A stretch of 64,000 bases of DNA from NCBI RefSeq assembly GCF_000585415.1, contig NZ_KK073876.1:136810-200809 (forward strand), in the 5' to 3' direction. The stretch comes from Sphingomonas jaspsi DSM 18422 (GTDB lineage Bacteria > Pseudomonadota > Alphaproteobacteria > Sphingomonadales > Sphingomonadaceae). The notes beneath the pieces were generated by a model, which saw only the letters and a program-made list of their open reading frames with translations, had not been told where the DNA came from and did not search any database. A program made the position numbers and the translations under genes. Below, piece after piece: positions 10,930 through 54,949 of this stretch (positions are counted from its first letter, which is position 1; each line of letters opens with the position of its first letter).

Positions 10930-11376
10930 CTAACCGGCCAGCATCGGCGACGTGAGCCGCGCCTTGTCCGCCGTCAGCTCGCGCCGCGCCAGCGCGATGA
11001 TCGCGTCCGCCGGCTCGGGCAAGCGCGCGCGATGCCGGTCGAGCCAGTCGATGAACCGCGTCGTCTCCTCCAGGAAGCGCACGTCATGGACGGGGTGCTC
11101 GGCCCAATAGGCGTCGAGCAGGTCCCGCAGCACCGGCTTCAACGCGCCGAGCGTCAGCGGCGCGATGCTGTTGAGCGCCGCGATCCGGGTCGCCCGGTAC
11201 AGGGTGCAATTGGCGTCCATCCCCTTTTGCCACACGGCCTTCACCAACCGGTCCCGCTCACGCTTGTTCAGGTCATAGCCCGCCAATGCCGTGTCGGGGC
11301 GGTCCCGCACCGCCAGGCACAGGGTCGGCGAGGCGGCGAGGTCGGCGAAGGCGCGCTGGAACGCGGCCAGCGTCAT
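10930..11376 (-). CDS. DUF2063-like partner protein of an MNIO enzyme
   Basis: A 148-residue soluble protein that starts MTLAAFQRAFADLAASPTLC. The start at 11376 overlaps the stop of the DUF692 gene in an ATGA; an ATG 15 bp further upstream is less likely. The N-terminal helix pattern (FQRAFADL, YDLNKRERDRLVKAVW) and the gene order match the DUF2063/HvfC/MbnC-like proteins that deliver a peptide substrate to DUF692 oxygenases. The resemblance is weak at sequence level and the role is inferred from position. It ends 4 bp from the end of lysS (convergent). Confidence 0.6.
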   Translation of the reverse strand: MTLAAFQRAFADLAASPTLCLAVRDRPDTALAGYDLNKRERDRLVKAVWQKGMDANCTLYRATRIAALNSIAPLTLGALKPVLRDLLDAYWAEHPVHDVRFLEETTRFIDWLDRHRARLPEPADAIIALARRELTADKARLTSPMLAG

Positions 11377-12269
11377 ATCCGCCGGCTCCACGCCTTACGT
11401 GCCCGGGCGATGACCCCGGCGATGCCCTCAAACCCGATCAAGGGCAGATAGCTGTCGTGAAATTCGAAGGTGATGCCGCGCAAATTGGGTGCGCGCGATA
11501 CAAGATCGTCGAGCAATGCCCACACCGGCTCCGGCGGCGCGCCCGAATGGCTGTCGGCATACATGCCGCCCAGCTCCGACCCGTTGGCGATATGCACCTC
11601 GATCACCCGGGTAAGGTCGAGGTGGTCGAGAAAGCGATGCCCGCAGAAATGATGATTGACTGTGTTGCAGTAGAGATTGTGCAGGTCGAGCAGCAGTCCG
11701 CTGCCGCTCAGGTCGCAGAAGCGGTTGAGAAAGTCGGCCTCGCTCAGGTCGGAATCCTCGAACGCGACATAATAGGGGCTGTTCTCGAGCAGGAACGGTC
11801 GTCCGGTCTCTTCCCGCACATAGCTGGCGCGCTCCACCGCGAGGTCGAGCACGTCGAGATCGAACGGCGCCGTCAACGCCAGCCCGGCGGCGGCAGGCCC
11901 GTCCCCATCGGAAATGGCGACGAAGGCGAGATGCTCGCTGATCCAAGATGCGTCCCACCGCTCGGCCCACGCCGCCATTTGCGCGACATAGCCATGGTCG
12001 GTCGGAACCGCACTGGCGATCGACAGCCCGATATGGTGCGACACCGTCGGCAGCCGCGCATCGTCCAGCATGGCTACCCACGCCGCGACATCGGTGAATC
12101 GCTGTGCCCCGGAGCCGCCGCTTCTGCCGCGGTCGGTCCAGAACATGTCCGGCGTGACCGCGACATAGTCGACGGCCCCGGGGGCACAGACAAATGGGGC
12201 GATCGCCAGATTGGCCATGATGCCCACGCCGAGCCGCGGAGCATCACCGGCCGGGTCTGCGATCCCCAT
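11373..12269 (-). CDS. DUF692 multinuclear non-haem iron oxidative enzyme (MNIO)
   Basis: A 298-residue TIM-barrel protein of the family that includes MbnB, TglH and BufB, which oxidise cysteine residues in ribosomal peptides. Expected metal ligands are all visible: His78/79 (SHHIGLSI), Glu112-His113 (ISEHLAF), Glu162-Asn163 (LENSPYY), Asp195, His197 and Asn198 (LLLDLHNLYCN), His226 (EVHIANG), Asp239 and His241 (ADSHSG), and Glu269 (EFHDSYL). The site therefore looks complete and active. It lies 14 bp after the small Cys-containing peptide gene and overlaps the DUF2063-like gene, so substrate, enzyme and partner form one operon. Confidence 0.88.
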   Translation of the reverse strand: MGIADPAGDAPRLGVGIMANLAIAPFVCAPGAVDYVAVTPDMFWTDRGRSGGSGAQRFTDVAAWVAMLDDARLPTVSHHIGLSIASAVPTDHGYVAQMAAWAERWDASWISEHLAFVAISDGDGPAAAGLALTAPFDLDVLDLAVERASYVREETGRPFLLENSPYYVAFEDSDLSEADFLNRFCDLSGSGLLLDLHNLYCNTVNHHFCGHRFLDHLDLTRVIEVHIANGSELGGMYADSHSGAPPEPVWALLDDLVSRAPNLRGITFEFHDSYLPLIGFEGIAGVIARARKAWSRRI

Positions 12270-12283
12270 CGGTGGCGGGTCCG

Positions 12284-12526
12284 TTAGTGGCCCAGCCTCA
12301 CGTTAATGACGGGATCGAACTGTTCGGTAATGTCGAACGGCTGACCGGACAAACAGGGTTGGCAGCCCCTCGGCAATTTCGCGATCGCCGAAAGATCAAC
12401 ACGCGACAAGGCTTTCAGCGCGTCGGCCAGTTTCGTCCCTTGCGGAACGGTGAACCGCAGCGCCCCTGTCGCCTTATTGAAGCCAATATAGCCATGACCA
12501 GTTTTAATGAGTGTTTCCGTTTCCAT
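12284..12526 (-). CDS. Putative 80-residue precursor peptide with C-terminal CxxC
   Basis: An 80-residue protein beginning METETLIKTGHGYIGFNK. It has no signal peptide or membrane helix. Its only cysteines, Cys55 and Cys58, are in RGCQPCLSGQPFD, followed by a short C-terminal tail ending NVRLGH. The start at 12526 has a GGGAG ribosome site 7 bp upstream; the frame is open 18 codons further but has no better site. It is the first gene of the minus-strand operon with the DUF692 and DUF2063-like genes. By position it is the likely modification substrate, with residues about 1-50 as leader and the CxxC region as core. It is not the DUF2282/BufA type, which has a signal peptide and more cysteines. 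Confidence 0.6.
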   Translation of the reverse strand: METETLIKTGHGYIGFNKATGALRFTVPQGTKLADALKALSRVDLSAIAKLPRGCQPCLSGQPFDITEQFDPVINVRLGH

Positions 12527-12773
12527 AGGGTTTCTCCCGCAGAGGACTCGGTAAGCAACAATATCTGCTTCTAACAGCAACGAGTCAAACCTGTTCTTGG
12601 ACTCTGTGTTTATTGTTACGGAGTCGAATTTATCGGCTAGTTTGACCCGATAAACGCTAGATTATTAATTGGTTTCAGCGAAGAACCTATTAATTTACCT
12701 AGATCATAATCCACGATTCGGCCGCGCAATAAGCGCTAGCCACGCTTTGCCGCGCTTGGCAGGATGCAGCACC
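12527..12773. other. AT-rich divergent promoter region between peptide operon and pfp
   Basis: A 247-bp gap between divergent starts, clearly richer in A+T than its surroundings from about 12540 to 12715. It should hold promoters for both the peptide operon and pfp. A 5-bp inverted repeat (GACTC...GAGTC) lies at about 12601-12626. I could not assign convincing -35/-10 boxes or a known operator. No coding frame is visible. Confidence 0.4.
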
Positions 12774-54859: not shown

Positions 54860-54949
54860 TGGCGGAGACGGAGGGATTCGAACCCTCGATACAGTTTCCC
54901 GTATGACGCTTTAGCAAAGCGTTGGTTTCAGCCACTCACCCACGTCTCC
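54860..54949 (-). tRNA. tRNA-Ser (anticodon GCU)
   Basis: A 90-nt class II tRNA. The acceptor stem GGAGACG pairs with CGTCTCC, followed by G and an encoded CCA. The anticodon loop TTTGCTAAA gives GCU (plus-strand positions 54913-54915), reading AGC/AGU codons. A long variable arm (ATACGGGAAACTGTAT) identifies tRNA-Ser, and the T arm is GAGGGTTCGAATCCCTC. Confidence 0.97.

Follow-up and report, generated by a model that had tools for sequence, protein, structure and literature searches.

A compact MNIO operon of Sphingomonas jaspsi with a small CxxC protein as its presumed substrate

Introduction

The stretch analysed here, 64,000 nucleotides of Sphingomonas jaspsi DSM 18422 (the window), carries an MNIO (DUF692) gene between a gene for an 80-residue protein with two cysteines and a gene for a helical partner. 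This triad raises the question of whether the small protein is the substrate of the MNIO and, if so, which of its residues is altered. A sequence-only reading had answered with a possible new RiPP class in which one or both cysteines are oxidised. The MNIO superfamily, the three-gene plan and the type of partner are already known; what would be new is a conserved small-protein substrate, an altered catalytic end of the enzyme, and forms carrying a Tat signal.

Results

Organization of the locus

The genes are transcribed from the minus strand in the order small protein, MNIO, partner (Table 1). A gap of 14 bp lies between the small-protein gene and the ATG of the MNIO gene, and the MNIO and partner genes overlap by 4 bp in an ATGA. 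The ribosome site, the short gap and the overlap had all been claimed beforehand and were found as described. Both flanking genes, which we take to be a lysyl-tRNA-synthetase-like ORF and a phosphofructokinase-like ORF, are on the plus strand, and the triad is therefore a unit of its own. One sigma-70-like site was found in the region against 0.5 expected. Elsewhere in the window, a tRNA-Ser (gct) at 54860-54949 on the minus strand is the sole tRNA found and the sole Rfam match at gathering score.

Table 1. Features of the triad and its upstream region, in window positions.
Feature	Position	Strand	Remark
Small protein gene, 80 aa, CxxCxSG, presumed MNIO substrate	12284..12526, stop codon included	minus	ATG at 12526
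Shine-Dalgarno-like GGGAG	12534..12538	minus	7 nt upstream of the small-protein ATG
Sigma-70-like site TTGACT-17-GATATT	12560..12588	minus	weak, 9/12
MNIO (DUF692, MbnB_TglH_ChrH) gene, 298 aa	11373..12269	minus	Pfam profile and alignments
Partner gene (PME-type 2); 148-aa helical protein similar to the N-terminal half of TglI	10930..11376	minus	fold comparison

The small protein and its homologues

The only cysteines of the small protein are Cys55 and Cys58, both within the conserved CxxCxSG near the C-terminus, as first noted. It matches no NCBIfam model up to E 1 and Pfam only below cut-off, with no DUF2282 match up to E 1, which agrees with its earlier separation from the DUF2282 type. Nor is there a signal-like hydrophobic stretch in the N-terminal 45 residues, where the best 12-residue Kyte-Doolittle mean is 0.4 by this crude measure; the earlier view that the protein has no signal peptide is thus upheld.

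Three database searches returned 88 homologues (E <=0.001) and 448 and 273 (E <=0.01); with the best 120 taken from each of the latter two, 244 distinct sequences were compared. Against its counterpart in Sphingomonas sp. JC676 (L001), pN is 0.19 and pS 0.73 over 80 codons, with dS near saturation, which fits purifying selection. Because of these homologues and the excess of pS over pN, the ORF is not a chance one. CxxC is present in all 244 sequences, as CxxCxSG in 242 and CxxCxCG in 2, and the number of cysteines is exactly two in 237, three in 5 and four in 2. Conservation of the proposed CxPCxSG therefore stands as far as CxxCxSG is concerned and not for the residues between the cysteines, which vary widely. 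Counted over 245 motifs with C..C.[SC]G as the anchor, whose letters are fixed by the counting, the flanks are also conserved: P (0.99) and R (0.99) precede the pair, and I at +11 (0.96), E at +13 (0.99) and V at +18 (0.95) follow it, figures that are partly selected for since similarity searches use the motif region. In the homologues compared, the part after the pair is at least 20 residues long, and a beta-beta-alpha-loop-beta layout is weakly predicted. With conservation to either side of the Cys pair it looks more like a small protein, and "peptide" may be a misnomer.

One of the two homologues with four cysteines (P0089) is a tandem duplicate with two PRGCxxCxSG motifs. Three of the 244 (P0171, P0183 and P0192) have RRAFLK close to the N-terminus and a hydrophobic stretch after it, presumably a Tat-like signal. 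The Tat route exports folded proteins, and such homologues would therefore suit a finished protein site. The precursors described in the available part of the MNIO survey have Sec signals or no signal (PMC12452194).

Linkage and distribution

The small protein adjoins an MNIO in all six loci read: those of the window, Sphingomonas sp. JC676, a Sphingomicrobium MAG (L002), a Bacteroidota MAG (L003), a MAG labelled as a cyanobacterium (L004), and G918 (L019), a genome of the window's family. In each, small protein, MNIO and partner keep this order and strand; with the start codons chosen, the first gap ranges from 1 to 28 bp and the second from -14 to +1 bp. The neighbours of the triad differ between the stretches as judged by eye. 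L001 to L004 were found via the MNIO and so ask whether this MNIO comes with this peptide; G918, reached via the small protein by a six-frame genome scan, examines the reverse direction as the sole newly peptide-found locus of the six. Its small protein is 33% identical over 72 residues and keeps both cysteines and the SG, with PSAC in place of PRGC. Another peptide-found genome, G584, listed in the window's genus, has the same triad proteins as L002 and is almost surely that genome again.

Profile scans found the small protein in 1/149 and 2/397 genomes of families, 2/71 of a genus, 1/398 of a phylum, 1/250 of a class, 1/247 in the phylum of L003, 1/194 in the phylum of L004 and 1/199 in the family of L001, in overlapping genome sets and with differing profiles (A1, A6, A7, A9), each centre genome counting itself. 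The matches were all single copies within triads, and none was seen standing alone in the scanned sets. The sequence-only reading was to be refuted by peptides mostly apart from DUF692 or by unconserved cysteines; neither appeared, with linkage in 6/6 loci, though only one of them was newly reached from the peptide. The triad is rare and scattered in the samples scanned. Relatives of the small protein come from distant bacteria and metagenomes; that the triad is infrequent and scattered across distant phyla suggests that it spread by gene transfer.

The MNIO and its partner

The 298-residue protein belongs to the DUF692 superfamily (PF05114, E 1.2e-43, 149.7 bits, cut-off 25). The NCBIfam types matched all score below their cut-offs, namely BufB as the best (127 bits, cut-off 310), the aminopyruvatide enzyme ApyH (110.6, cut-off 400), HvfB (102.3, cut-off 360), ChrH (44.2, cut-off 600) and MbnB (12.6, E 0.071, cut-off 325), and the enzyme is therefore of none of these types. 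Its two best relatives in the PDB are 3bww (121.3 bits) and TglH (8hci, 119.7 bits), with several MbnB entries besides.

The iron ligands of TglH are H71, H107, E151, D184, N187, H216, D229, H231 and E258 (PMC10880893). In a MAFFT alignment 8/9 of these columns match the window enzyme, and the ninth, E258, falls on T267, two residues off; hhalign places E269 on the ligand Glu of both bufferin-type and TglH-type enzymes. The inferred set is H78, H113, E162, D195, N198, H226, D239, H241 and E269, and the full set of ligands seen in the earlier reading is thereby recovered.

The catalytic end differs. The base of MbnB is Asp240 (PMC8888699), to which Asp249 of FonB is the catalytic counterpart (PMC13097082), and the three bufferin-type enzymes compared end in E-x-D. 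The six triad enzymes have E-[F/M]-H-[D/E] instead, with Glu last in G918. For the window end, E269-F270-H271-D272, hhalign puts D272 on the catalytic Asp and treats H271 as an insertion; the catalytic acid may therefore be displaced by one residue. TglH is reported to have no Asp of the E-x-D kind and to need Asn73 (PMC10880893), at whose column the window enzyme has a gap in the MAFFT alignment. These sequences hint at a different geometry or reaction. Since the end differs from those of both the 5-thiooxazole formers and TglH, the thiooxazole or oxazolone/thioamide product named earlier is a guess.

The partner matches no Pfam family over cut-off and does not match DUF2063 up to E 1. It is helical with a fold like the N-terminal half of TglI and stops after this domain, at 148 aa versus 268 in the TglI chain. 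PME-type 2 proteins are those that follow the MNIO, lack the DUF2063 signature and have a fold related to NGO1945 or TglI; the partner follows the MNIO gene, has no such signature and shares the TglI-related fold. The label "DUF2063-like" for the third gene thus does not hold at the level of the domain match, and what is left of it is a likeness of fold, to TglI.

Discussion

Directly supported for the triad are its genes, their linkage, the ligands, the likeness of the partner to TglI and the conservation of the Cys pair; the small protein as substrate, Cys as target, the chemistry and a metal role are what we infer. The triad is probably a dedicated maturation unit in which the MNIO and its partner oxidise Cys55 and/or Cys58 of the small protein. 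In such a scheme the TglI-like helical domain would dock on the MNIO and help to present the 80-residue protein, so that the loop PRGCxxCxSG could enter the iron site. By analogy with MbnBC and TglHI, a Cys thiolate would bind one Fe, O2 would be activated and the beta-carbon oxidised, leaving Cys55 and/or Cys58 in oxidised form. Most likely the small protein would stay whole as the product, its CxxC loop modified, and no peptide would be cut out, because there is conservation to either side of the pair and a stretch of at least 20 residues after it. The modified pair could plausibly form a compact metal or redox site in the cytosol; copper as the metal would be a guess by analogy with bufferins and methanobactins.

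Alternatively, the MNIO could modify a residue other than Cys, for instance the conserved Glu68 or a neighbouring Asp or Asn, with the CxxC as a metal or structural site only. Conservation after the pair comes close to that of the pair itself, and Asp, Asn or Phe is the target of some MNIOs (PMC12452194). Such enzymes, however, form small groups with larger and more diverse clusters, and where genes are few and Cys motifs conserved, Cys is the indicated target (PMC12452194); a non-Cys target is quite unlikely. The small protein might instead be an accessory, either a metal chaperone or a third subunit feeding iron or electrons to the MNIO, with the real substrate encoded elsewhere. Conservation over much of its length, the use of CxxC as a common metal-binding motif and the weakly predicted layout would all suit that role. 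Yet it stands ahead of the MNIO, the precursor's place in bufferin operons (PMC12452194), and inspection by eye of the stretches read showed no further gene shared by all six loci that might encode a substrate; we regard an accessory role as distinctly unlikely.

A reaction of the TglH type, in which the Cys beta-carbon is excised to leave a 2-mercaptoglycine residue (-14 Da), would agree with the partner's resemblance to TglI and with TglH being one of the two best solved relatives. The displaced E-x-D acid also recalls TglH, in which no such residue was found (PMC10880893). The essential Asn73 is absent from the window enzyme, however, and the Cys of TglA is C-terminal, so that this chemistry is very unlikely here. 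Returning to oxidation of the Cys pair, a broader proposal would place the triad in a class not described before. Its MNIO would act within an intact folded protein, and not on a RiPP to be cut out, maturing a compact two-Cys centre by a reaction at E-x-H-[D/E] unlike those of TglH and of the thiooxazole and oxazolone formers with their E-x-D; some members would be exported by Tat. We hold this extension to be unlikely.

The triad is a minimal MNIO system, with the only two cysteines of the presumed substrate in one conserved motif, one enzyme and a partner pared down to a domain for docking. Were the Cys pair modified, an MNIO would here complete a site within a small protein instead of making a copper peptide that is cut out or secreted. 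A further MNIO reaction could also come to light from the altered catalytic end.

Among known systems, methanobactin MbnABC likewise has an MNIO and a partner without DUF2063 signature, with Cys targets (PMC8888699), and a precursor without signal peptide (PMC12452194). MbnA, however, is a leader with a short core, whereas the presumed precursor here has 80 residues with conservation to either side of the Cys pair, and the window MNIO is far below the MbnB cut-off. The bufferins and captophorins (BufABC, HvfABC, FonABC) share the precursor-MNIO-partner core and a small Cys-bearing precursor (PMC12452194, PMC13097082), and captophorins carry 5-thiooxazole in the product. The window protein differs in having no signal-like N-terminus, DUF2282, EGKCG or 6-Cys pattern and a single Cys pair; it is accordingly neither Buf1 nor Buf2, for which a signal peptide and DUF2282 or 6/12 Cys are required. 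The partner, too, lacks the DUF2063 signature of PME-type 1, and the MNIO ends in E-x-H-[D/E]. The same genome holds a second MNIO (L005, G000:C1:2469197-2469985) in a bufferin-type operon, where a precursor with a signal-like N-terminus and four Cys after it is followed by the MNIO and a DUF2063-like gene (precursor and partner judged by eye); the triad is therefore not its only MNIO system. A plasmid of Rhodanobacter denitrificans (L008, 2696-6723) carries a DUF2282 precursor-MNIO-partner operon within a mercury-resistance cluster annotated with merR, merT, merP, merC and merA.

TglHI is similar in the fold of its partner. It differs in that TglH depends on Asn73 (PMC10880893) and that TglHI uses an added C-terminal Cys, whereas the window pair is an internal CxxC (PMC10880893, PMC9016710). 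An MNIO with a TglH-like Asn is found on a plasmid of Burkholderia stagnalis (L009, 2539-4451), where it adjoins a gene for a small hypothetical protein and methyltransferase genes. The 2025 survey (PMC12452194) already describes precursors without signal peptide but with CxxC (adjamnio-7) and PME-type 2 partners, so that "new RiPP class" was too strong a term. Adjamnio-7 comprises putative precursors for MNIO cluster 7, represented by WP_078758616 of Novilysobacter spongiicola (PMC12452194). The small protein matches this description, with no signal peptide, a CxxC and a place in an MNIO gene cluster, and by this comparison of descriptions its family may be the adjamnio-7 group. Many clusters of survey groups 4 to 21, with group 7 not specified, hold further RiPP genes (PMC12452194), whereas the window triad consists of three genes only.
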